Source: Brevibacillus agri
GTDB taxonomy: Bacteria > Bacillota > Bacilli > Brevibacillales > Brevibacillaceae
Direction: 5' to 3'
Length of the DNA: 64,000 nucleotides
NCBI RefSeq assembly: GCF_004117055.1
Contig: NZ_CP026363.1
Coordinates: forward strand, 850,001 to 914,000
Each line of letters begins with the position of its first letter. The first letter of the stretch is position 1. The translations under genes and the position numbers were made by a program. This document shows, in pieces, positions 27,442 through 51,460 of the stretch. The notes below the pieces were generated by a model. The model did not search any database. It was not told the origin of the DNA and was given only the letters and a program-made list of their open reading frames with translations.

Positions 27442-27487
27442 ACATATTGTTGTTGGCTACAAGACTGGCTTGATGAATACATGACAA

Positions 27488-27599
27488 ATTCGTATATCCT
27501 CAAAGATATGGTTTGAGGGTCTCTACAGGGAACCGTAAATTCCCGGCTACGAATGAGGGTGTTTTTTGACATACCTTATTCGTCGGCCGGGAATTTTTT
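27488..27599 (+). promoter_or_regulatory. Guanine-type purine riboswitch with terminator
   Basis: P1 is ATTCGTA (27488-27494) / TACGAAT (27548-27554). The core contains GATATGG, GTCTCTAC, CCGTAAA and GGCTACG, matching the purine riboswitch consensus. The specificity base aligned with C74 is C, predicting guanine or hypoxanthine binding. AAATTCCCGGC (3' side of P3 into J3/1) pairs with GCCGGGAATTT (27586-27596) followed by six T, so the terminator and the aptamer are mutually exclusive in P3/P1. Hence ligand binding should favour the terminator-free aptamer or compete with the terminator by folding kinetics; whether the switch is ON or OFF cannot be decided by eye. Confidence 0.9.
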
Positions 27600-27700
27600 G
27601 CGTTGTCGTCTGTTGCCGCGGGCAGGGATAGACAGCGCAAGAGCCATCTATGCTTGGTGAAAGCCTAGTATTCCAACATGCTTACGGGGAGGAACTGGAA

Positions 27701-29134
27701 GTGAAGAAATACGATGCGATTGTGGTAGGAGCAGGACCAGCCGGAATTTTTACATGTTATGAGCTGACGCGAAAAGCGCCGAATGCCAAGGTGCTTCTCA
27801 TTGATAAAGGGCACGACATTTACAGCAGACGCTGTCCGATCCTGGAAGAAAAAATCAAGCTTTGTCCGCCGCCTGCCGGGAAAAAGGACTATGCGGGCTG
27901 TCTGCCGGCCTGTTCGATTACCAGCGGTTTTGGTGGAGCAGGCGCTTACAGTGACGGCAAATTCAACATCACGACGGAGTTCGGCGGCTGGATGACGGAT
28001 TACCTCAGTCCTTCCACTGTGCTTGGTCTAATCAAATACGTCGACGAAATCAACCTGGAGCACGGCGCGACCCGCACGATTACCGATCCGACGACAGAGA
28101 CGATCAAAAGCATCGAGCAGCGCGGGTACGCGGCAGGGCTCAAGCTGCTGCGCGCACAGGTGCGCCATTTGGGCACAGAGCAAAACCTGGAGATTTTGCA
28201 GTCGATTTTTGAATATTTGAAGGAACGGATCGACATGATGTTCAAGACCGAGGTCGAGGACATTTTGACGGTCAAGGAAGACGGCGGCCATCGCGTGAGA
28301 GGCGTCGTCCTGAAAAACGGGGGAGAGTACGAGAGCGACTTTGTCGTGATCGGACCTGGCCGGGACGGCTCGGCTTGGCTGACCAACATCCTGAAAAAGC
28401 GCCGCCTGAAAATGTACAACAACCAGGTGGACGTCGGGGTGCGCGTAGAGACGTCCGATGTCGTTATGCGCGAAATCAACGAGCATTTGTACGAGGGCAA
28501 GTTTATTTTCAACACATCCGTCGGCACGCGGGTCCGCACGTTTTGCAGCAATCCGTCCGGGCACGTCGTCGTGGAAAACCACAGCGGGGTCATGGCGGCA
28601 AACGGGCATTCCTACAAAGACCCGGCGCTCGGCTCGACCAATACGAACTTCGCGCTGCTCGTTTCGCATACGTTCACGGAACCTTTTGACAAGCCGAACG
28701 AGTACGCGCGAGAGATATGCAAACGCGCCAACGATTTGTCCAACGGCGGCGTGATCGTGCAAAAGTACGGCGATATTTTGCGGGCGCGCCGCTCTACGGA
28801 AGCGCGGATCAAGGAAGGCTTCCTCGAGCCGACCTTGAAGGAAGCCGTGCCGGGCGATCTCGGACTGGTGCTGCCTTACAATACGATGAAAAGCCTCATT
28901 GAAATGGTGGAAGCGCTGGACAAGGTCACGCCGGGAATTGCCTCGGAGCACACGCTGTTTTACGGCGTCGAAGCGAAATTTTACTCGGCGCGTCCCAAGC
29001 TGACAGAGGAGTTTGAGACGGAAATCAAAGGACTGTTCTGCGGGGGCGACGGGGCAGGGATCACGCGCGGACTGGCGCAGGCGGGTGCGGCAGGCGTCTG
29101 GATGGCGCGCAGCATGGTCAAACGGATGATGTAA
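27701..29134 (+). CDS. Uncharacterised FAD-dependent dehydrogenase (COG2509-like), under purine riboswitch
   Basis: A 477-residue flavoprotein. It opens with the dinucleotide-binding motif AIVVGAGPAGIFTCYELT and ends with the FAD-closing motif GLFCGGDGAGITRGLAQAGAAGVWMARS. Between lie RCPILEEKIKLCPPP with several Cys, SGFGGAGAYSDGKF and RVRTFCSNPSGHVVVE. The family is known in many bacteria and archaea without an assigned reaction. The start is GTG at 27701, behind GGGGAGG; an upstream frame to 27650 lacks a site. Purine riboswitch control hints at a role in purine metabolism or oxidation of a purine-linked compound. Confidence 0.82.
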   Translation: MKKYDAIVVGAGPAGIFTCYELTRKAPNAKVLLIDKGHDIYSRRCPILEEKIKLCPPPAGKKDYAGCLPACSITSGFGGAGAYSDGKFNITTEFGGWMTDYLSPSTVLGLIKYVDEINLEHGATRTITDPTTETIKSIEQRGYAAGLKLLRAQVRHLGTEQNLEILQSIFEYLKERIDMMFKTEVEDILTVKEDGGHRVRGVVLKNGGEYESDFVVIGPGRDGSAWLTNILKKRRLKMYNNQVDVGVRVETSDVVMREINEHLYEGKFIFNTSVGTRVRTFCSNPSGHVVVENHSGVMAANGHSYKDPALGSTNTNFALLVSHTFTEPFDKPNEYAREICKRANDLSNGGVIVQKYGDILRARRSTEARIKEGFLEPTLKEAVPGDLGLVLPYNTMKSLIEMVEALDKVTPGIASEHTLFYGVEAKFYSARPKLTEEFETEIKGLFCGGDGAGITRGLAQAGAAGVWMARSMVKRMM

Positions 29135-32146: not shown

Positions 32147-32177
32147 CTGAAAAAACAATTGCTTTTTCAGTTTGTTC
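32147..32177 (+). terminator. Terminator after the chemoreceptor gene
   Basis: CTGAAAAA pairs with TTTTTCAG followed by TTTGTT. It overlaps the -35 region of the next promoter. Confidence 0.55.
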
Positions 32178-32186
32178 TGCTAGAAT
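32159..32186 (+). promoter_or_regulatory. Promoter of the SAM riboswitch transcript
   Basis: TTGCTT (32159-32164), 16 bases, TAGAAT (32181-32186), about 20 bases before the aptamer. Confidence 0.5.
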
Positions 32187-32213: not shown

Positions 32214-32384
32214 TCTCCTTATCGAGAGCGGCGGAGGGACTGGCCCGATGAAGCCCGGCAACCACTGGACATGCGTGACATGGACAGAAAGGTGCCAATT
32301 CCTGCAAAACCTGTACCGGGGTTTTGACAGATGAGGAAGAGGACGGCTTCGGACGCAAACTCTTCCTTCGGGAAGAGTTTTTTT
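32214..32384 (+). promoter_or_regulatory. SAM-I (S-box) riboswitch with terminator
   Basis: The S-box core is textbook: ATCGAGAG, GGAGGGACTGGCCCGATGAA, GCCCGGCAACC, AAGGTGCCAATTCC and GACAGATGAGG. The terminator is AAACTCTTCC (32357-32366), TTCG loop, GGAAGAGTTT, seven T. GGAAGAG at the 3' side of P1 (about 32334-32340) can pair with CTCTTCC of the terminator, giving the usual antiterminator. High SAM should therefore switch off transcription into the downstream nucleoside transporter genes. No gene lies between the riboswitch and the start at 32532. Confidence 0.95.
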
Positions 32385-32448
32385 GTTGTCAGGAGGGGTA
32401 ATACACGAACGATAAAATATTTTTATTGCAAAATATTCGTGTTTAGTA

Positions 32449-32516
32449 TTGATTTTTTCGGAAAAAAGCCGTACATTACGTAGTAGGATACAGAAAAAAC
32501 GTAGAACGTTCGGATG
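32449..32516 (+). promoter_or_regulatory. Possible second promoter and PurR-like operator between riboswitch and transporter
   Basis: TTGATT (32449-32454), 17 bases, TACATT (32472-32477) resembles a sigma-A promoter. GAACGTTCGGATG (32504-32516) is identical to 13 bases at 27312-27324 in the PurBox-like region. An AT-rich inverted repeat (ATATTTT/AAAATAT) lies at about 32417-32436. If active, this promoter would bypass the SAM switch. Confidence 0.35.
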
Positions 32517-32531
32517 GGAGCGGAAGACACC

Positions 32532-33560
32532 ATGAAGAAGTTGTTGTTAGCATTCACCACTTTTGCTGTTTTGGCTGCGGGCTGTTCGGCTGGCGGAAAT
32601 GCGCCTGCTGACAAGCCAAAGGAAGAAGCGGCAGGGCAAGAAGGCGCGGCGAAGAAGCGCATTGCGCTGATTTTGCCGGAAAAAATCGGGGTAAACCCGT
32701 TCTTCCAGCAAATGGACGAAGGCGCGAAAAAAGCAGGACAGGAATTTGGCGCAGAAGTAAAAAGCATCGAGTCTACTGACCACGGCGCCATCGAAGAAAA
32801 TTTGCGCGTTGCGGTAGCGGAAAACTACGATCTGATTATCACTTCTTCTTTTGAAGCGGAAGACGCGCTGAAAAAAGTGGCAGCCGAAAATCCTGACCGC
32901 AACTTCGCGATTATTGATACCGTAGTAGATTTGCCAAACGTGCGCAGCGTTACCTTCCGCGAGCAGGAAGCGGCTTACCTGATGGGCGCTGCGGCAGGTC
33001 TTGCCACGAAGACAAACAAGGTCGGCATGGTTGTCGCCATGGATATTCCGCTGTTGAAAAAATGGACAGGCGGCTTCCAGGAAGGCTTGAAAGCAACCAA
33101 TCCAAACGCGGAGTTCCTGGTGAACTACGTAGGAAGCTTCTCTGACCCGGCAAAAGCGAAGGAGCTGGCGCTGCTGCAAGCATCCAAAGGCGCCGACTTC
33201 ATCAACGGAGCGGCAGCAGTAGGCGACCTCGGCGTGTTCGAGGCCGCGAAGGAAAAAGGCTTCTATACATCGGGACAGGACGTTGACCGCACCACGATCG
33301 ACCCTGAGCACATCGTGTTGTCCCAGCTCAAAGGGACAGATGCCGCTGCGTATGAAACCGTGAAGTCGTTCGTAGAAGGCTCGTTCAAGCCGGGCGTCGT
33401 CACTTACGGCTTGAAAGAAAAAGGCGTAGGCGTAACGTATGTGACGCACGAGAGCCAGACGCCTCTGAACGCTTTTATTGGCCAGGAAGTCGTGGACAAA
33501 GTAAAAGCGATCAGCGAGGAGATCATCGCTGGTACCCGCAAAGTGCCAGACTCGTTTTAA
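32532..33560 (+). CDS. BMP-family (BmpA/Med) nucleoside-binding lipoprotein
   Basis: Substrate-binding lipoprotein of an ABC importer. The signal peptide ends in the lipobox LAAGC (Cys about residue 18). The mature part has the BMP-family fold features ALILPEKIGVNPFFQQMDEGAKKAG, SSFEAEDALKKVAAENPD, EQEAAYLMGAAAGLAT and QDVDRTTIDPEHIVLSQLK. Characterised relatives (PnrA/TmpC, BmpA, NupN) bind purine or other nucleosides. The start at 32532 follows GGGAGCGGAAG. It is the first gene after the SAM riboswitch and sits before the ATPase and two permeases. Confidence 0.88.
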   Translation: MKKLLLAFTTFAVLAAGCSAGGNAPADKPKEEAAGQEGAAKKRIALILPEKIGVNPFFQQMDEGAKKAGQEFGAEVKSIESTDHGAIEENLRVAVAENYDLIITSSFEAEDALKKVAAENPDRNFAIIDTVVDLPNVRSVTFREQEAAYLMGAAAGLATKTNKVGMVVAMDIPLLKKWTGGFQEGLKATNPNAEFLVNYVGSFSDPAKAKELALLQASKGADFINGAAAVGDLGVFEAAKEKGFYTSGQDVDRTTIDPEHIVLSQLKGTDAAAYETVKSFVEGSFKPGVVTYGLKEKGVGVTYVTHESQTPLNAFIGQEVVDKVKAISEEIIAGTRKVPDSF

Positions 33561-33585
33561 CAGCTAGCGCACAGTGCATGATTGT

Positions 33586-33611
33586 GACCGACTACAACTG
33601 TGTAGTCGGTC
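33586..33611 (+). other. Intercistronic hairpin after the binding-protein gene
   Basis: GACCGACTACA and TGTAGTCGGTC form an 11-bp perfect stem with a 4-base loop, followed by TTCCTT and not a full T run. Such stems commonly stabilise the binding-protein mRNA or cause partial termination, so that binding protein exceeds the transporter. Confidence 0.6.
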
Positions 33612-33681
33612 TTCCTTATATGCAAGGCAAGGAGCAGAGGCAAGGAAGAGAAAGGCTAGGCGCAAAGAAGGAGGAGCAAGG

Positions 33682-35211
33682 ATGACCGATCGTTTGGAAA
33701 TGCGGGCCATGACCAAGAAATACGGAGATTTTATTGCAAACGACAAGGTCTCGTTTTCGCTTGCTGCGGGAGAAGTCCACGCCATCGTCGGGGAAAACGG
33801 CGCGGGCAAGACGACGCTGATGAGGATGCTGTACGGCATGGAGCAGCCTACGTCCGGCGAGATCGTGCTAGGCGGCAAGCCTGTCGCTTTTCGCGGGCCG
33901 CAGGACGCCATTCGCAGCGGGATCGGGATGGTGCACCAGCACTTCATGCTGTTTGGCGAGTTTAGCGTGGCGGAAAATATCGTGATCGGCTACGAGCCGC
34001 AGCAGGCCGGATTTTTCCGCCGGAAGGACGCCGTGGAAAAGGTCCGCGCACTAAGCGAGCAGTACCGGATTCCGATAGATGCACAGGCTAGAGTGTCCAA
34101 CTGCTCCATCGGCGAGCAGCAGCGTGTGGAAATTCTCAAGGTGCTGTACCAGGGAGCGGACATCATCGTGCTGGACGAGCCGACTGCCGTGCTGACGCCG
34201 CTTGAAGTTCGCGAGCTGTTGCAGACGATCCGCAATCTGGCGGAGAGCGGGAAGAGCGTCATTTTGATTACGCACAAGCTGCAGGAAGTGATGGAGGTCG
34301 CAGATCGGATCACGGTGTTGCGCGGCGGCAAGGTGACGGGCACGGTAGCGCGCGACGAGACGAATGTGGACGATCTGGCCCGGCTGATGGTCGGACGCGA
34401 GCTGCGGGAGCTGAGCGAGCGCGTCGATCTGGAGCGGGGGCCGCTTTTGCAGGTGGAGAACTTGACGGTTCGGGAAAAACAGACGCTGCTCGACCGGGTC
34501 AGCTTTACCGTGCATCACGGGGAAATCGTCGGCATCGCGGGCGTATCGGGCAACGGCCAATCCGAGCTGCTGCAAGCGATCAGCGGCTTGCGGACGGTAC
34601 AGGAGGGAACGATTCGGCTGGGCGGCAAGGACGTTACCAACCAGACTGTCGCGACGATTCGCGAGGCGGGCTTGGCGCACATCCCGGAAGATCGCTACTT
34701 GTGGGGGACGGCCAAGCTGGAGAGCGTCGAGGAAAACGCGCTGATGGGCTACCAGCGAAAGCCTGCGTTCAATCGGCGCGGCGTCGTGTTGCGCGAAGCT
34801 TTTCGCCAGGTCGTCAGAGGCTGGGTAGAAAAGTTCGCGATCAAGACAGGCTCCAGACAGCTTCAGGAGCTGGCCGGGAATTTGTCGGGCGGAAATCTGC
34901 AAAAGCTGATCGTGGCGCGCGAGCTGGGACATGAGACTCCGTTTTTGATCGCGGCAGAGCCGACCCGGGGTGTTGATATTGGCGCGATGGAGTACATCCA
35001 TCAGGCGCTGATCGACAAGCGCAACGCAGGCGACGGGATTTTGCTGGTCTCGTCCGAGCTGTCGGAAATTTTGGCGCTGTCAGACCGGATTTTGGTGATG
35101 TACAAAGGGCGGATCGCCGGAGAGCTTTCGCGCAAAGAGGCAACCGAGGAAAAAATCAGCGTGTTAATGGCGGGAGGAAGCGTTCATGGCAGCAATCAAA
35201 GAGCTGGGTAA
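33682..35211 (+). CDS. Nucleoside ABC transporter ATP-binding protein (double ATPase)
   Basis: The 509-residue protein has two ATPase domains in tandem, as in RbsA and NupO. Domain 1 has Walker A GENGAGKTT, Q-loop VHQHF, signature NCSIGEQQR, Walker B IIVLDEP and H-loop ITHK. Domain 2 has a degenerate Walker A GVSGNGQSE without the Lys, the signature NLSGGNLQK and IAAEPTRGVD, as is normal for the second half. The ATG at 33682 follows AAGGAGGAGC; an open frame further upstream to 33574 has no site. The end overlaps the first permease by 26 bases. Confidence 0.92.
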   Translation: MTDRLEMRAMTKKYGDFIANDKVSFSLAAGEVHAIVGENGAGKTTLMRMLYGMEQPTSGEIVLGGKPVAFRGPQDAIRSGIGMVHQHFMLFGEFSVAENIVIGYEPQQAGFFRRKDAVEKVRALSEQYRIPIDAQARVSNCSIGEQQRVEILKVLYQGADIIVLDEPTAVLTPLEVRELLQTIRNLAESGKSVILITHKLQEVMEVADRITVLRGGKVTGTVARDETNVDDLARLMVGRELRELSERVDLERGPLLQVENLTVREKQTLLDRVSFTVHHGEIVGIAGVSGNGQSELLQAISGLRTVQEGTIRLGGKDVTNQTVATIREAGLAHIPEDRYLWGTAKLESVEENALMGYQRKPAFNRRGVVLREAFRQVVRGWVEKFAIKTGSRQLQELAGNLSGGNLQKLIVARELGHETPFLIAAEPTRGVDIGAMEYIHQALIDKRNAGDGILLVSSELSEILALSDRILVMYKGRIAGELSRKEATEEKISVLMAGGSVHGSNQRAG

Positions 35212-36256
35212 ATCACTGGTTCAGCCGCTTTTGGCGGTTGTCATCGGGCTGTTGATCGGGGCGCTCGTCATCGCTTCGGTAGGGGAATCTATCCTGGGCA
35301 CGTATCAGGAAATGTGGAAAGGGGCCTTCGGCAGCTTCTACTTCTTCACCTCTACCTTGGCGAGAGCGACGCCGATCATGCTGATCGCCTTGGGGCTGTC
35401 GCTTGCTTTTCGGGCGGGAGTGTTCAACCTGGGGGCAGAAGGACAGATGGTGCTCGGGGCGATCAGTGCTACGCTCGTGGCGATCTATTTGCCCGCACCG
35501 GGAGTCGTGAAGCTGGTGGCGGCGATTTTCACGGGGATGGCGGCAGGCGGTTTGTGGGCGCTGCTGCCGGGCTTTATGGAGGCGAGATTCCGCATACCGC
35601 TGCTCATCTCCACCTTGCTGTTCAACTATATCGCCGTTCTGTTCGCAAGCTACCTCGTAACCGAGCCGTTTCGCGACCGCAGCGGTTCGGCGGCGCTGGC
35701 GCAGACGGTCATGCTCGATAAAAGCGTCTGGTTGCCCAAGTTGTTTGCGGGGATGAGTGTGCACGCGGGCTTTTTGTTTGCCATCGTCGGTGCCGCGATC
35801 CTGTTTTGGGTGATTCGCTTTACGCCGTTTGGCTATGAAGTGAAAATGCTCGGACAAAACCCGCTGTTTGCCCAGTACGGGGGGATCAACGGCATTCGCG
35901 TCATGCTGACGGGCATGTTTGCGAGCGGCGGATTGGCCGGCCTGGCAGGAACGGTCGAGGTGCTGGGGGCGCACTATCGTTTTGTCGACGGCGCTTTGAC
36001 GGTGCCGAACTTCGCCTGGACAGGGCTGATGGCAACGCTTTTGGCGAACTCCCATCCGGTGGGTGTCGTGTTTACCTCGATTCTGCTGGCTGCGTTCCAG
36101 ACGGGAGCGATGGGCGTGGAGCGCAACACAGAGGTACCGCTGGAGCTGGCCAGTGTGATTTCAGCCGTGCTGATCCTGTTTATCTCGGCTAAATTCAGCT
36201 ACGACTGGTGGAAAAAGCGGAAAGCAAAAGGGGGAGAATCTCATGGAACTGCTTGA
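35186..36256 (+). CDS. Nucleoside ABC transporter permease 1
   Basis: A 356-residue membrane protein with about 8-10 helices of the BPD_transp_2 family (RbsC/NupP type). Family marks are LGLSLAFRAGVFNLGAEGQMVLGAI, near the front, and FTPFGYEVKMLGQNPLFAQYGGI followed by GLAGTVEVLG. It overlaps the ATPase gene upstream by 26 bases and the second permease downstream by 14 bases, so all three are translationally coupled. It forms the heterodimeric channel with the next protein. Confidence 0.9.
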   Translation: MAAIKELGKSLVQPLLAVVIGLLIGALVIASVGESILGTYQEMWKGAFGSFYFFTSTLARATPIMLIALGLSLAFRAGVFNLGAEGQMVLGAISATLVAIYLPAPGVVKLVAAIFTGMAAGGLWALLPGFMEARFRIPLLISTLLFNYIAVLFASYLVTEPFRDRSGSAALAQTVMLDKSVWLPKLFAGMSVHAGFLFAIVGAAILFWVIRFTPFGYEVKMLGQNPLFAQYGGINGIRVMLTGMFASGGLAGLAGTVEVLGAHYRFVDGALTVPNFAWTGLMATLLANSHPVGVVFTSILLAAFQTGAMGVERNTEVPLELASVISAVLILFISAKFSYDWWKKRKAKGGESHGTA

Positions 36257-37157
36257 TTGGTCCCTCGTCAGTTCTACCATTCGGATGGTGACGCCGATTT
36301 TGCTCGCGGCATTGGGGGGAGCGCTGTGCGCGCGGGTTGGCATTTTTAATGTAGGGCTGGAAGGCATGGTGCTCGTTGGCGCCTTTTCCGCCATCGTCGG
36401 CAATCACTTTACCGGGAATCTGTTCCTCGCGATCTTGATCGCGGCGCTGACGAGCGTTCTTTTTTCCCTGCTGTTTGCCTATATGACGATCAAGCTGAAA
36501 GCAAACGAGATCGTCGTCGGGGTGGCGATCAATTTCCTCGCGCTCGGTTTGACGACGTTTGCGTTGCGGGCGATTTTTGGCGTCAAGGGAGCTTTTTACG
36601 ATAAAGACATGGCAGGCTTGCCGAAGTGGGACATTCCGGGGCTACAGCACATTCCCGTCGTGGGCGAGGTCGTATCGGGGCATTCGCCGCTCGTCTACCT
36701 CGCGTTTGTGGCCGCGATTGCGCTCTATTTGTTCTTTTACAAGACGGTTACCGGCTTCCGGGTTCTCGCCGTCGGTTCCAATCCGGTGGCTGCCCGCAGC
36801 CTTGGGTTGAAGGTAGCAGGCTTGCAGGTGCTCGCGATCGTCATGTGCGGCGCTTTGTGCGGGATTGCCGGAGCGCAGCTTTCTTTGGGGCAAGTGACGA
36901 TGTTTTCGGAAGGGATGACCGCGGGTCGCGGCTTTATCGCCCTGGTCGCGATGATGATGGGGCAGTCTCACCCGCTGGGAATTTTGGCGTCGAGCTTCCT
37001 GTTCGGCTTGATGGATGCGCTGAGCATTCGTCTGCAAGGCTTCTCGCTTCCGACGCAGTTTACTTCGATGCTGCCGTATTTGCTCACGGTGGTGGCGATG
37101 TTCTTCCTGAAGGATCGGATGAAAGGCGCCAGCCATAATCAGCAGAGCACCCGGTAA
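36243..37157 (+). CDS. Nucleoside ABC transporter permease 2
   Basis: A 304-residue partner permease of the same family (NupQ type). It has TPILLAALGGALCARVGIFNVGLEGMVLVGAF at the N-terminus and VTGFRVLAVGSNPVAARSLGLKVAGLQ in the cytoplasmic loop, followed by GMTAGRGFIALVAMMMGQSHPLGI. GGGGGAG precedes the ATG inside the end of permease 1. A 42-base gap without a terminator leads to the molybdopterin enzyme gene, so the latter is in the same SAM-controlled unit. Confidence 0.9.
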   Translation: MELLDWSLVSSTIRMVTPILLAALGGALCARVGIFNVGLEGMVLVGAFSAIVGNHFTGNLFLAILIAALTSVLFSLLFAYMTIKLKANEIVVGVAINFLALGLTTFALRAIFGVKGAFYDKDMAGLPKWDIPGLQHIPVVGEVVSGHSPLVYLAFVAAIALYLFFYKTVTGFRVLAVGSNPVAARSLGLKVAGLQVLAIVMCGALCGIAGAQLSLGQVTMFSEGMTAGRGFIALVAMMMGQSHPLGILASSFLFGLMDALSIRLQGFSLPTQFTSMLPYLLTVVAMFFLKDRMKGASHNQQSTR

Positions 37158-37199
37158 CAAAAGAGGGTGCAGTCAGCAAAGACCAAGGGGGTACGCAAC

Positions 37200-37862
37200 A
37201 TGAACAAGGCAGATCGGATCAAACGGATGAAGGTGCCGGCGGTCGACCCGGCATTGGCCAAACGGCTTCCGCCAGGACAAGTATTGACAGAGCGCTTTCC
37301 TATTTTGCACGAGGGCGAAGTGCCCACCTACGACATGAAGGACTGGACGCTGCGCGTGTTTGGCGAGGTCGACCGGGAAGTTACGCTCAACTACGAACAG
37401 CTCATGGCGCTGCCGCAGGTGACGGTGAAAAGCGACATTCACTGCGTGACGCGCTGGTCGCGGTTTGACAATGCATTTACAGGCGTGCGCTTCCGTGATT
37501 TTTTGCAGGCAATCGGTGTCGTGCCCGCCGCGTCCTACGTCATGCTGCACGGCGATCACGATTACACGGCGAATGTGCCGCTGGCCGACCTGATGCGCGA
37601 CGATGTGCTGTTGGCCCATTCCTTTGACGGGGAGCCGCTGACGGACAAGCACGGCTGGCCGCTGCGCCTGGTCGTCCCGCACCTGTATTTCTGGAAAAGC
37701 GTGAAGTGGCTGCGCGGCATTGAGTTTATGCGCGAAAACAAGCCCGGCTTCTGGGAGCAAAACGGCTTTCACCTGATCGCAGACCCGTTCCGCGAAGAGC
37801 GGTTTTCCGGTGAGGCGTTGCCGATCCCGGAAGACGAATGGGAGAAAAAGGAGTTTGATTGA
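37200..37862 (+). CDS. Cytosolic molybdopterin sulfite-oxidase-family oxidoreductase
   Basis: The 220-residue protein has the sulfite-oxidase fold domain (COG2041, YuiH-like). The molybdenum-ligating Cys lies in DIHCVTRWSRFDN (about residue 81), with FRDFLQAIGV, HGDHDYTANVPL, LLAHSFDGEPLTDKHGWPLRLVVPHLYFWKS and KWLRGIEF. No Tat signal or haem domain is present, so it is a cytosolic enzyme. Relatives such as MsrP reduce S-oxides, others oxidise sulfite; the substrate here is unknown. Its place in a SAM-riboswitch nucleoside operon suggests a sulfur compound. The next gene starts 1 base after its stop. Confidence 0.85.
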   Translation: MNKADRIKRMKVPAVDPALAKRLPPGQVLTERFPILHEGEVPTYDMKDWTLRVFGEVDREVTLNYEQLMALPQVTVKSDIHCVTRWSRFDNAFTGVRFRDFLQAIGVVPAASYVMLHGDHDYTANVPLADLMRDDVLLAHSFDGEPLTDKHGWPLRLVVPHLYFWKSVKWLRGIEFMRENKPGFWEQNGFHLIADPFREERFSGEALPIPEDEWEKKEFD

Positions 37863-37863
37863 G

Positions 37864-38589
37864 ATGCTGACCAATCTGAAAGTAGACCCGGAACAACTGC
37901 CAAAACGCGCTATCGTCTGCGGCGATCCGAAACGCGCTGCCTTGATCGCCTCCAAGCTGGAAAACACGCGGCAAATTGGGGAAAATCGCGAGTACCACAG
38001 CTATGCCGGAAGCTGGAGGGGCACGGAGGTAGCGGTAGTCAGCCACGGCGTCGGTTCGCCTGGAGCGGCTGTATGCTTTGAAGAACTGGCGAAGGGTGGC
38101 GTACAGGTCATCATCCGCGTCGGGACGGCCGGATCGTATCAGCAAGAAATCGAGCCGGGCAGCCTCGTCATCAGCTCGGCTGTTGTGCGCCAGGACGGGC
38201 TTACAAGCCAGTTGGTTCCGCCCGGTTTCCCGGCTGTCGCCAATCGCCGCGTGGCAGATGCGCTCGTGCAAGCAGCAAAAGCGCACGAATCGGGGCTGCA
38301 CGTAGCGGAAGGCATCACGCTGACGCTCGATGTTTTTTACAGCGGCGTCCTCGAATTTCCGCACAAGCTGTACCAAAAAGCAGGGGTGTTGGCTGTCGAG
38401 ATGGAAAACTCCGCGCTGTTCGTCATTGCCGCGCTGCGCGGCATGAAGGCCGGGTCGATCCTCGCGATTGACGGCTACGCCGATGCCGATTTGCTTGCCT
38501 CGTACAACCCGCACACAGAGACGATGGCCAAAGCGATTGAAGCCGAGGCGCTGATTGCGCTGGATGCGCTAGTGTCCGTTTCCGCATAA
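37864..38589 (+). CDS. Nucleoside phosphorylase (PNP/UDP family 1)
   Basis: A 241-residue member of the trimeric/hexameric PNP-UDP family. It has the phosphate-binding CGDPKRA near the start, SHGVGSPGAAVCFEEL, the family signature IIRVGTAGSYQQEIEPGSLVI and the ribose-binding MEMEN-like motif (LAVEMENSALFVIA). The sequence is nearest to uridine phosphorylase-like proteins, but substrate preference cannot be read by eye. It would split imported nucleosides into base and (deoxy/methylthio)ribose-1-phosphate. AAGGAG lies 10 bases before the ATG. It is the last gene of the unit and is followed by a strong terminator. Confidence 0.88.
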   Translation: MLTNLKVDPEQLPKRAIVCGDPKRAALIASKLENTRQIGENREYHSYAGSWRGTEVAVVSHGVGSPGAAVCFEELAKGGVQVIIRVGTAGSYQQEIEPGSLVISSAVVRQDGLTSQLVPPGFPAVANRRVADALVQAAKAHESGLHVAEGITLTLDVFYSGVLEFPHKLYQKAGVLAVEMENSALFVIAALRGMKAGSILAIDGYADADLLASYNPHTETMAKAIEAEALIALDALVSVSA

Positions 38590-38598
38590 AAATGAAGC

Positions 38599-38636
38599 AA
38601 GCCCGGGACGATGAGAAGTCCCGGGCTTTTTCTTTT
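38599..38636 (+). terminator. Bidirectional terminator between the nucleoside operon and the ArsR gene
   Basis: AAGCCCGGGAC pairs with GTCCCGGGCTT and is followed by TTTTCTTTT. Confidence 0.92.
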
Positions 38637-38651
38637 GCCATACGACAGCCG

Positions 38652-38978
38652 CTATTCTTCATTGAAGCGATCCAGCATCGAGATCGTGTCGATCAGGTGG
38701 TTGTTGAAAATTTGCCGGGCAACGCTGAGCAGCTCGATAATCATCGGGTCGCGCAAGGAATACGTCACCTTGTTTCCGTCCTTTGTTCCGTACACGATGT
38801 TGTTGTTGCGCAAAATAGCGAGTTGCTGGGAAACGGCCGAGCCTTCGCTGCCGATGAGCGTTTGCAGCTCGTTCACGTTTTTGTCTCCCTCCGCCAAGAG
38901 CTCCAGAATCCGAATCCGCAGGGGATGCCCCAGTGCTTTGAAGAAATTCGCTTTAAATTGCTGTAGCTCCAAATTCAA
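38652..38978 (-). CDS. ArsR-family winged-helix repressor
   Basis: A 108-residue ArsR/SmtB fold protein. The helix-turn-helix is GDKNVNELQTLIGSEGSAVSQQLAILRNNNIVYGTKDGNKVTYSLRD. The typical metal site ELCVCD is not present, so it is probably not an arsenite-type sensor. It starts with TTG at 38978 behind GGAGG and lies 24 bases downstream of sulP on the same strand. It may therefore repress the shared operon through the inverted repeat at 40779. Confidence 0.85.
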   Translation of the reverse strand: MNLELQQFKANFFKALGHPLRIRILELLAEGDKNVNELQTLIGSEGSAVSQQLAILRNNNIVYGTKDGNKVTYSLRDPMIIELLSVARQIFNNHLIDTISMLDRFNEE

Positions 38979-39002
38979 TAGCAGGTTCCTCCGATCTTTT
39001 CG

Positions 39003-40757
39003 TCATACCGACGTTTGGGATGTTTGCTGCACGCAAGCCGTTTGCGAGTGAGGATCAGCCAGGCTCGCGCATTCCCGGAAAGCAAAGTGCTGGCAGCCCA
39101 GACATTTGCCGACGTCCAGCCGGCGCAGGGCGTACTCGATTGCCTCTCCGGTGTGGTCGAAAAAGTGTGCTTCGCCGATGAGCGCATAAAGGCCCGTGCG
39201 CTCTAAAATTTGTTTCGGGGCGTTTTGGATTCCGGAGACGAGTACCGTTGTTCCCTGACTCATGCATTGTTTCACGATCCGCGACAAATTGGCTTCGCCC
39301 GTCATGTCCAGAAACGGTACTTTGCCCATTCGCAGCAGCAACACTTTTGGCTGATGCTGCAACGTGTTCGCAAGCGAGCTTTCGAACAGATCGGCATCCC
39401 CGAAAAAGAGCGGTCCCTCGATCGTGTAGATGCTGATTTGCGGGCAATCGTGCTGGGACGTCACCATGTGAGGCGTGACCTTCTCATGCTTCAAGGAAGG
39501 GTCGGGCAATACTTTGGCTACTCGCAGGCTTTCGCGCATTCGTTTGATAAACAGCAGCACGGCCAGCACCAGCCCGACCTCGACGGCGGTAGTCAGATTC
39601 GTAAAGACAGTCAACAAAAAAGTAATCAGCAGCACGAGAGAGTCGCTCGTCCTTGCTTTCAGGATGTGCGCAAATTCCTTGCGCTCGCTCATGTTCCAGG
39701 CGACCAGCATCAGAATCGGCGCCATGCTCGCCAAAGGAATGTGCGAGGCGTAAGGAGCGAGCAGGACGAGAATGAGCAGGACGACGATGCCGTGGACGAT
39801 TCCGGACACAGGGGAGGTCGCTCCGCTGCGGATATTCGTCGCGGTTCTGGCAATCGCGCCTGTAGCGGGTATTCCCCCGAAAAGCGGCGTCACCATGTTG
39901 GCGATGCCTTGCCCGATCAGCTCCTGGTTGCTGTTGTGGCGACTGCGTGTCATGCCATCCGCGACTACCGCAGACAGCAAAGACTCTATCGCTCCTAGTA
40001 TAGCAATGATTAGAGCGGGACTCAGCAGTTTTTGGACGCGCTCCAGCGTAATTTCAGGAAAATGGAAGCCGGGCAGCGCGTTGGGAATCTCTCCGAAGGT
40101 CGAACCGATCGTCGCGACTTTTCCTTCGAAAAAGAGGAAGGCAACGACGCTGGAAATGACCAGGCCGACGAGCGAGCCTGGAATATTTCGCACGAAGCGC
40201 GGCGTGATTAAAATAATGGCGAGACTCAAGACTGCCGTCGCTACGCTGTACAAGCTGGTTGTATCGAGGTGAACGGCGACTTCCTTCATGTTGGACAAAA
40301 AGTCCTCGTGCCGCTGCACTTGCGACAGACCGAGGAAATTGGCGATCTGCCCCGTAAAAATAATGACGGCAATCCCGGCAGTAAATCCGATGGTGACGGG
40401 GCGGGGGATGAATTTGATAAGTCCGCCAAGCTTGAGCAGCCCCATCAGGACGAGAAGAATCCCGGCCATGAAGCCCGCGAGCAGCAAATCCTCATAGCCG
40501 TACTGCATGACGATGGCAAACAAAATCGGGATAAAGGCCCCGGTCGGCCCGCCGATCTGGTAGCGGGAGCCGCCAAAAAGCGAGATGAGCGTACCCGCGA
40601 TGATGGTGGTGTAAATCCCGTACTCCGGTTTGACGCCTGAGGCGATCGCGAACGCCATGCCAAGCGGAATTGCGATAATCCCTACGATTAGTCCTGACAC
40701 GCAGTCTTTTCTGAATGCTTGCGTATTGTAGCCCTCAAATCTAGCGGCCCACTTCAT
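39003..40757 (-). CDS. SulP-family anion transporter with STAS domain and Cys-rich tail
   Basis: A 584-residue transporter with about 12 membrane helices (GLIVGIIAIPLGMAFAIASGVKPEYGIYT is the family signature), then a STAS domain (about 435-545, SIYTIEGPLFFGDADLFESSL). SulP proteins move sulfate, bicarbonate or other anions. The last 35 residues contain five Cys (KCLGCQHFAFREC, and TAC further on), which is unusual for the family. The ATG at 40757 has AAGAAGGG upstream; an earlier in-frame start lies in the operator and is unlikely. It is co-transcribed with the ArsR gene. Confidence 0.88.
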   Translation of the reverse strand: MKWAARFEGYNTQAFRKDCVSGLIVGIIAIPLGMAFAIASGVKPEYGIYTTIIAGTLISLFGGSRYQIGGPTGAFIPILFAIVMQYGYEDLLLAGFMAGILLVLMGLLKLGGLIKFIPRPVTIGFTAGIAVIIFTGQIANFLGLSQVQRHEDFLSNMKEVAVHLDTTSLYSVATAVLSLAIILITPRFVRNIPGSLVGLVISSVVAFLFFEGKVATIGSTFGEIPNALPGFHFPEITLERVQKLLSPALIIAILGAIESLLSAVVADGMTRSRHNSNQELIGQGIANMVTPLFGGIPATGAIARTATNIRSGATSPVSGIVHGIVVLLILVLLAPYASHIPLASMAPILMLVAWNMSERKEFAHILKARTSDSLVLLITFLLTVFTNLTTAVEVGLVLAVLLFIKRMRESLRVAKVLPDPSLKHEKVTPHMVTSQHDCPQISIYTIEGPLFFGDADLFESSLANTLQHQPKVLLLRMGKVPFLDMTGEANLSRIVKQCMSQGTTVLVSGIQNAPKQILERTGLYALIGEAHFFDHTGEAIEYALRRLDVGKCLGCQHFAFRECASLADPHSQTACVQQTSQTSV

Positions 40758-40778
40758 GGTAGCAACCCTTCTTTTCGT

Positions 40779-40806
40779 ATATTCGAATATTTGATTATTT
40801 GAATAT
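40779..40806. promoter_or_regulatory. Inverted repeat, likely ArsR operator of sulP-arsR
   Basis: ATATTCGAATA (40779-40789) and TATTTGAATAT (40796-40806) form an 11-bp inverted repeat with one mismatch and a 6-base spacer. This resembles ArsR/CzrA-type operators. It lies about 20 bases upstream of the sulP start. Confidence 0.6.
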
Positions 40807-40813
40807 AGATGGA

Positions 40814-41014
40814 TCATACTCCTGCTCGGCGATTTTCGTCAATCGCATCCTTACAGGAACTTTGCCCTTTTTTTACAAACGCTTCAAGTTCTCTTAATGC
40901 TGGTGCATTACCATTCAAAGTAACAAGTGAATACATCCCTTCGGTTGGAGCCATGGAGAAACCCCCGACAGCCTTTCCAAGCACTTTCATCGAGAGTTCT
41001 TTGGCAATTGTCAT
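40814..41014 (-). CDS. Small hypothetical ORF upstream of sulP
   Basis: A 66-codon frame (MTIAKELSMKVLGKAVGGF at the start, then LRELEAFVKKGQ) in a stretch more AT-rich than the surroundings. No good ribosome site is seen at the first ATG. I cannot assign a family. It may be a gene remnant or chance. The same interval (40758-41056) otherwise holds the promoter region for glpP. Confidence 0.25.
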   Translation of the reverse strand: MTIAKELSMKVLGKAVGGFSMAPTEGMYSLVTLNGNAPALRELEAFVKKGQSSCKDAIDENRRAGV

Positions 41015-51318: not shown

Positions 51319-51460
51319 AAAAAAAGACCAATGATATAGGATCATTGGTCTTGTCCTACATCAATATTTCGGTAGCTGGCTGGCATGCCCGCTCGTGCGG
51401 AGGTAGCCCCTCTAGCTTTGCGTCGCCGGATTTCCCCGGGTTTGCCGTTTCGATATCAAT
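51319..51460 (-). promoter_or_regulatory. c-di-GMP-I (GEMM-I) riboswitch and terminator before the GGT gene
   Basis: Read on the minus strand, the aptamer (51460-51365) has the hallmark segments CGGCAAAC, a P2 stem CCGG-GGAAAT-CCGG with a GAAA tetraloop, GACGCAAAGCTA, GGGGCTACC and ATGCCAGCCAGCTACCGA. About 15 bases later AAGACCAATGAT/ATCATTGGTCTT (51352-51324) forms a terminator with a run of seven T. The GGT start is about 135 bases further. The arrangement implies control of GGT by cyclic di-GMP; ON or OFF is not decided. Confidence 0.82.

Follow-up and report, generated by a model that had tools for sequence, protein, structure and literature searches.

5'-Methylthioadenosine (MTA) arises as waste in polyamine synthesis and in other chemistry that uses S-adenosylmethionine (SAM). 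In Bacillus subtilis its salvage proceeds through MtnN, MtnK and MtnA (PMC2885750), while PurR of the same organism acts on 14-bp PurBoxes with central CGAA/TTCG that are spaced by 16 or 17 bp and lie just upstream of the -35 element (PMC8789054), as described in the available parts of both reports. Nucleoside importers of the PnrA/BmpD type combine a BMP lipoprotein with a double ATPase and two permeases. Features of all three systems meet in a stretch of Brevibacillus agri DNA of 64,000 nucleotides (contig NZ_CP026363.1, positions 850,001-914,000, forward strand), hereafter the window, to which coordinates refer unless another contig or locus is named. There, genes for an importer of this type, a small molybdoenzyme and a nucleoside phosphorylase stand behind a SAM-I riboswitch (S-box), and we propose that this operon probably serves the uptake and phosphorolysis of MTA, possibly also of MTA sulfoxide or related 5'-deoxy purine nucleosides. 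As in the B. subtilis route, the product would enter at MtnA, and later pathway genes are S-box-led here; the differences would be that the substrate comes from outside and that the phosphorylase replaces both nucleosidase and kinase (PMC2885750, available part). The importer retains the base and ribose residues of the PnrA/BmpD type and differs from it in the base-side loop and in the addition of a phosphorylase, a molybdoenzyme and S-box control, whereas the departure from the PurR regulon is that the putative PurBoxes share their leader with a SAM-I riboswitch.

The presence of a six-gene unit behind a complete S-box and its terminator was confirmed (Table 1). The initial annotation, made from the sequence and its reading frames, had described an S-box with terminator and no gene before the BMP lipoprotein, and this agrees with the covariance-model match and the hairpin found; its gene list was borne out by Pfam matches, the permease frames do start inside the preceding ones (35186 within the frame ending at 35211, 36243 within that ending at 36256), and the closing terminator is readable on both strands. 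Conservation was followed in three samples: 26 Brevibacillus genomes, that of the window (5.37 Mb, one contig) included; 398 genomes of the class Bacilli, with phosphorylase matches taken at E <= 1e-35; and named genomes, represented by the best 80 loci among the matches listed. All 26 genus genomes have the phosphorylase gene (80-93% identity, own genome excluded) and 25 of them, counting the window, keep the same six-gene order, so that the arrangement is more than chance. In the class sample the phosphorylase was matched in 55/398 genomes, 30 of them outside the genus; the full operon accompanies it in 21 of these 30 and is missing in nine. Among the best 80 listed loci, which fall in Brevibacillus, Bacillaceae and Paenibacillaceae, 68 hold the complete operon (Brevibacillus, Metabacillus, Mesobacillus, Neobacillus, Robertmurraya, Peribacillus, Paenibacillus, Cohnella and others). 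A natural deletion was observed in genome G013, where transporter and molybdoenzyme are lost and S-box and phosphorylase have been retained together, the S-box and terminator lying 92 bases upstream of the phosphorylase gene (L046 1156-2092). P1, the promoter-like site upstream of the S-box, is likewise gone from that leader, and no orthologous BMP protein was found elsewhere in the genome, only a 37% relative. The B. agri genome itself carries further BMP operons, and a plasmid search gave short matches only.

Table 1. Features of the operon and its leader (window coordinates).
Feature	Position	Strand	Identification
P1, promoter-like site upstream of S-box	32159..32186	+	TTGCTT, 16 nt, TAGAAT preceded by TG
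SAM-I riboswitch aptamer (S-box)	32216..32337	+	RF00162, 90.7 bits vs gathering score 44.4, all 108 model positions
Riboswitch intrinsic terminator	32357..32387	+	hairpin 32357-32380, 10-pair stem and T run
PurBox 1 (putative)	32401..32414	+	core CGAA 32406-32409, its columns 92-96% identical across the 24 genus leaders
PurBox 2 (putative), inverted, 16 bp from box 1	32431..32444	-	core TTCG 32436-32439
P2, promoter-like site downstream of S-box terminator	32449..32477	+	TTGATT, 17 nt, TACATT
BMP-family (PnrA-like) substrate-binding lipoprotein	32532..33560	+	PF02608, 205 bits vs cut-off 24.1
Stem-loop with weak T tail, between lipoprotein and ATPase genes	33586..33611	+	
Double ABC ATPase	33682..35211	+	PF00005 (ABC_tran), two stretches
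Permease 1	35186..36256	+	PF02653 (BPD_transp_2)
Permease 2	36243..37157	+	PF02653 (BPD_transp_2)
Small Oxidored_molyb (sulfite-oxidase-fold) enzyme	37200..37862	+	PF00174, 160.5 bits
NP-I family nucleoside phosphorylase, proposed MTA phosphorylase	37864..38589	+	PF01048 (PNP_UDP_1), 146 bits
Bidirectional terminator, common to operon and convergent arsR-like gene	38599..38628	both	

The leader folds better than all of 200 shuffled sequences (z -3.23), and 40 invariant columns are common to the operon S-box and to others of this genome, among them those of metK, mtnK and metH; the element is predicted to bind SAM and to terminate transcription in response to it. P1 is kept in most genus leaders, with a score under the threshold of the consensus promoter scanner. 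In total 14 S-boxes were found in the B. agri genome, the profile-checked targets being metK, homoserine dehydrogenase, homocysteine synthase, metH, a MetQ-family lipoprotein, mtnK-mtnA and mtnW, with a further PLP protein of methionine synthesis just below its cut-off. The link to SAM put forward in the initial annotation stands throughout the genus, since an S-box precedes the operon in all 24 leaders that were readable and complete (the contig of G015 begins at the first gene); beyond the genus it depends on lineage. There, an S-box was found in 3 of 25 upstream regions of the class sample (21 operons and four lone phosphorylases), all in same-family genera, and Rfam run on 18 of the 25 returned the same three and nothing else at E <= 0.05. 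The complete named loci have it in 24 of 68 cases, all within the 32 operons at L178-L209; the 36 others are nearly all from Paenibacillus. Calls in the named loci and the class sample were made by covariance model, a simpler sequence pattern having missed a known S-box in L091. A spermidine-sensing variant of the SAM-I riboswitch, altered in J1/2 and the P3 loop according to the available part of its published description (PMC10853860), was considered since a relative of the phosphorylase adjoins nspC, and it was rejected, the core columns matching those of methionine-gene S-boxes. Two other S-boxes lie before transporters. One, at L071 in the B. agri genome (C1:1207088 onward), precedes a sugar-type ABC importer (binding protein, ATPase, permease) whose binding protein has no NCBIfam name at E <= 1e-20, and it is a guess that this importer carries methylthioribose; the other, near the operon of G215 (L091 2463-5832), leads an ECF-type transporter (S component PF07155, double ATPase, CbiQ).

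A new finding in the leader, overlooked in the initial annotation, is a putative PurR-type operator with a second promoter-like site, P2, between the S-box terminator and the lipoprotein gene. The CGAA/TTCG pair, the 14-bp boxes 16 bp apart and their place just upstream of the -35 element resemble the PurR regulon as described in the available part of PMC8789054. In the form CGAAC - 25 or 26 nt - TTCG/TACG the pair occurs in 23/24 genus leaders (18 exact, five with TACG; L069 lacks it), with core columns 79-100% identical and between-box columns mostly 46-79%, and in 21 of the 24 the P2 pattern TTG-N3-N17/18-TA(A/C)ATT follows directly, again scoring under the threshold of the promoter scanner. 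PurR is encoded in the genome (TIGR01743, 384 bits vs a cut-off of 258.7), and CGAA-N27-TTCG lies upstream of purE. Genome-wide the bare motif is uninformative, because ACGAA-N26/27-TTCGT occurs at 15 places vs 19 in a reversed control; the argument for a PurBox pair is built on conservation, spacing, place and a shuffle control. The exact pair was present in 15 of the 68 complete named operons vs 0.68 expected from dinucleotide shuffles, and a loose form, set after viewing the Bacillaceae leaders and applied alike to the shuffles, in 30 vs 4.8 expected. At L178-L209, 19 loci have both controls, five the S-box only, eight the pair only (one of them, L187, cut at a contig edge) and none neither, and the 36 other loci hold three loose pairs. 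All seven Bacillaceae loci without S-box carry the loose pair and all five loci without the pair carry the S-box, so either control can stand alone in related bacilli. Along the phosphorylase tree each control changes at least five times; the tree was made by a quick method with hand settings for the control states of single loci (S-box state of L187 uncounted because of the contig edge, L186 scored as pair-bearing, and L239, L246 and L247, whose Paenibacillus PurBox matches were treated as chance, uncounted).

These elements change the idea that the S-box gates the whole unit. A genuine SAM-I riboswitch heads the operon, as had been claimed, but with P2 placed beyond the S-box terminator the claim is weakened, and part of the operon's transcription probably escapes the riboswitch. 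The initial annotation had itself raised an internal promoter as the case that would speak against its reading; a conserved candidate was found, which says nothing on which promoter dominates. From the computed features (S-box, PurBox pair, conserved gene set, residues and the remaining Mtn pathway encoded by the genome) we infer a substrate, a reaction, a regulatory logic and a role for the molybdoenzyme. The BMP lipoprotein would bind the nucleoside outside the cell and the ABC proteins would import it, after which the phosphorylase would use phosphate to cleave MTA into adenine, which could enter purine salvage, and methylthioribose-1-phosphate, on which MtnA would act on the way back to methionine. 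At high SAM the S-box would terminate transcripts from P1, with sufficient purines PurR would repress P2, and the molybdoenzyme would, most simply, reduce an oxidised sulfur nucleoside. Switching by both SAM and purine status would make sense because MTA feeds both pools; the dual control, as an argument from regulation, suggests a substrate that supplies both, as MTA does.

The phosphorylase was modelled with high confidence (AlphaFold, pLDDT 90.5). Among solved structures the closest in fold are purine nucleoside phosphorylases (PNPs), those of Plasmodium and Thermus among them (Z 33-35), and the Sulfolobus MTA phosphorylase (Z 33.1), all tied, and the best Foldseek match is the PNP of Plasmodium falciparum (PfPNP; E 8.6e-26, 36% identity). 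The phosphate-site residues Gly20, Arg24, Arg42 and Arg85 and the purine acid Asp203 are retained, and Arg24, Arg42, Arg85, Glu181 and Asp203 are constant in all readable rows of a family alignment of 131 rows (116 distinct, some genomes appearing twice, under a G label and as a named locus). According to the available part of PMC3885546, PfPNP also takes 5'-methylthioinosine, and its His7 lies 3 Å from the 5'-hydroxyl, the inosine/methylthioinosine ratio falling from 1.6 to 0.1 in His7Ser and 0.3 in His7Phe. By alignment, Asp206, Val66, Val73, Met183 and the phosphate residues of PfPNP are retained here, with Val63 (131/131) at Val66 and Val70 (130/131) at Val73; the differences are His7, replaced by Asn4 or Ile (Ile in 69 rows, Asn in 61, one gap), Tyr160, replaced by Phe158, and a shorter loop without Trp212. 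The two DeoD proteins of the same genome and five distant relatives (L115-L119) have His at the His7 position and Met or Ile at those of Val63 and Val70. Overall, four of five pocket positions appear compatible with or favourable to a methylthio group and one argues against it. If MTA-specific, the enzyme would be of the NP-I kind, as the NP-II MTAP model (TIGR01694) did not match it at E <= 0.001; the MtnN model (TIGR01704) gave 39.9 bits vs a cut-off of 73.8. It is the sixth such protein of the genome and passes no family cut-off, while the others, an inosine/guanosine PNP, MtnN, two DeoD proteins and a futalosine hydrolase, all score over theirs.

The same pocket bears on two other products of SAM chemistry. 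5'-Deoxyadenosine, a waste product of radical-SAM enzymes whose salvage is served by MtnA-like enzymes, would fit the apolar 5' site equally well, and its uptake and phosphorolysis would give adenine and 5-deoxyribose-1-phosphate, usable by MtnA-like isomerases; the MtnA neighbour of one relative, described below, suits this substrate too. It would return no sulfur, which makes methionine control through an S-box less natural, and we consider it distinctly unlikely. The initial annotation had proposed a SAM-derived sulfur nucleoside in general, and dual control, the 5' pocket and the mtnA neighbourhood support that proposal and narrow it to MTA. S-adenosylhomocysteine, also in its list, is less likely than MTA because the 5' pocket looks small and apolar. 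S-box control would be in keeping with S-adenosylhomocysteine or another bulky SAM derivative; the hydrophobic 5' positions show no sign of a site for an amino-acid end, and MtnN, which acts on both MTA and S-adenosylhomocysteine, is already in the genome, so such a substrate is very improbable.

For MTA, the downstream pathway is available, as S-box-led mtnK-mtnA and mtnW are present in the B. agri genome. In G186 (L113 5774-12232) a relative of the phosphorylase (about 49% identity) stands in a row of genes on one strand: a carboxynorspermidine-synthase-like gene and nspC come before it, and genes for a GntR regulator, MtnA (465 bits vs a cut-off of 279) and a NupC-type nucleoside transporter after it. 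This relative, on a long branch of the tree, has Asn at the PfPNP His7 position. The locus, from a different lineage and with a different transporter, would bring together import, phosphorolysis and the following step of the MTA route. It is a single case: homologues of mtnK, mtnA, mtnW, CNT and nspC neighbour none of the 80 named loci, and L113 alone has such neighbours.

Several observations weigh against MTA as the substrate. Phe158 is present in 131/131 rows at the place of PfPNP Tyr160, and in the available part of PMC3885546 the Tyr160Phe change raises the inosine/methylthioinosine ratio to 12 with methylthioinosine use down about tenfold, while His7Ala shows no shift in preference (2.2). 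The best family score of the phosphorylase is with uridine phosphorylase (TIGR01718, 158 vs a cut-off of 280.3 bits); with MtnN already present, another enzyme that splits MTA would in part duplicate it; mtn genes lie within about 9 kb in none of the best 80 loci among the matches listed; and the residues of the BMP site point neither to MTA nor to adenosine in particular. Moreover, the S-box is absent upstream of the operon in the 36 Paenibacillus-group loci among those best 80 and in 18 of 18 Paenibacillus-like loci of the class sample, and the 11 Paenibacillus-like genomes that were searched hold two to three S-boxes each elsewhere. Four same-family genomes hold 10-15, so the absence fits a general shrinkage of S-box use, and it fits a change of role as well. 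In Paenibacillus-like loci (L098, L101, L112 and others) the BMP gene is immediately preceded by a conserved promoter-like TTGACAAGGATCGACA...TAGGAT, and both the S-box and the PurBox pair are lacking.

Part of this evidence would suit an ordinary importer and phosphorylase for adenosine, inosine or guanosine that belongs to the PurR regulon and acquired its S-box later, the reason being either that SAM use releases adenosine or that low SAM raises the demand for purines and one-carbon units. BMP transporters of known substrate carry such nucleosides, and in them the Phe pair stacks the base and Asp/Asp/Lys contact the ribose (PMC7093131, PMC13325309, available parts). In the alignment to BmpA the lipoprotein retains the Phe pair (Phe27, Phe176) and Asp98, Asp225 and Lys242, and it differs in Phe151 to Trp and Asp19 to Pro55 and, relative to BmpD, in Asn28 to Phe64. 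A nucleoside is therefore very likely its ligand, with the base side or rim of the site altered. The PurBox pairs in the leaders, Phe158 as in inosine-preferring PNPs, and the Paenibacillus group without S-box point the same way. Against this stand the loss of the 5'-hydroxyl-binding His in 130/130 readable rows together with the Pf-type valines, the two DeoD proteins and the inosine/guanosine PNP that the genome already has, and the other checked S-boxes of the genome, which lead methionine and salvage genes. We regard ordinary nucleosides as an unlikely explanation of the operon, and MTA as its probable substrate.

The molybdoenzyme is short, with a single cysteine, Cys82, near-invariant in 73 rows, and neither a signal peptide nor a Tat signal was seen in its sequence. 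In 69/69 loci measured its gene directly precedes that of the phosphorylase, and in 68 of them the two are separated by -8 to 9 bases, a constant adjacency that speaks for joint action. The earlier claim that it acts on the sulfur of the nucleoside is unsupported: near relatives at E <= 1e-40 occur in 116/398 Bacilli genomes, many of them standing alone without the operon, and a second copy is found in every genus genome of the 398-genome sample except G013. Relatives of 74-75% identity are present in two genomes without the operon, one adjoining molybdenum-cofactor genes. Of the relatives outside the operon, six loci (L170-L175) and that of the paralogue in the B. agri genome (L176) were inspected; the neighbours at L170 (molybdate-type binding protein, ABC ATPase, ThiF, MoCF_biosynth, MoeA) are uninformative on the substrate. 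The enzyme shares fold family and a single metal-ligand-type cysteine with MsrP and the sulfite dehydrogenases, and differs from them in its short length, in that no Tat signal was seen and in scores far below every equivalog cut-off (MsrP 60.1 vs 207, SoxC 70.3 vs 420, SorA 47.2 vs 600 bits); family scores favour no known function. A sulfoxide-reducing role, by analogy with the fold family, is a guess. The more elaborate pathway in which MTA would be oxidised outside the cell, imported as the sulfoxide, reduced by the cytosolic molybdoenzyme and split by a new NP-I MTA phosphorylase, all under a SAM riboswitch and PurR, appears doubtful to us.

The literature searched yielded no S-box before a BMP operon and no bacterial MTA importer, an earlier mention in studies of Gram-positive methionine regulation being possible. 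Present in many soil bacilli, the unit would thus be a widely conserved candidate for MTA import; its phosphorylase may be an MTA phosphorylase of a new type, and the unit gives a substrate hint for the unassigned molybdoenzyme. The leader, in turn, may be a natural case of one transcription unit under a methionine-side riboswitch and a purine-side repressor, of which relatives have dropped one or the other, and such regulatory logic could be used to predict the substrate of a transporter.

Regarding the remaining features, the most likely start codon of the lipoprotein is ATG 32532 and not the in-frame ATG 32514, 18 bases upstream, because the latter occurs in the window only among the 24 leaders. 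The stem-loop downstream of this gene may lower expression of the genes that follow. The minus strand next to the operon (38652-40817) carries a SulP/STAS sulfate-permease-type gene followed by an arsR-like regulator gene, convergent with the operon; several other genomes of the genus likewise have the arsR gene close to the operon. Upstream of the operon, a purine riboswitch (within 27470-27650, 76.8 bits) stands directly before a FAD-dependent oxidoreductase-like open reading frame (27650-29134, 494 amino acids, PF21688), an unusual target for a riboswitch of this class; in G013 a purine riboswitch (L046:6675-6774) lies about 4.6 kb from the S-box. Finally, a c-di-GMP-I riboswitch (66.6 bits) was found on the minus strand at 51368-51456.

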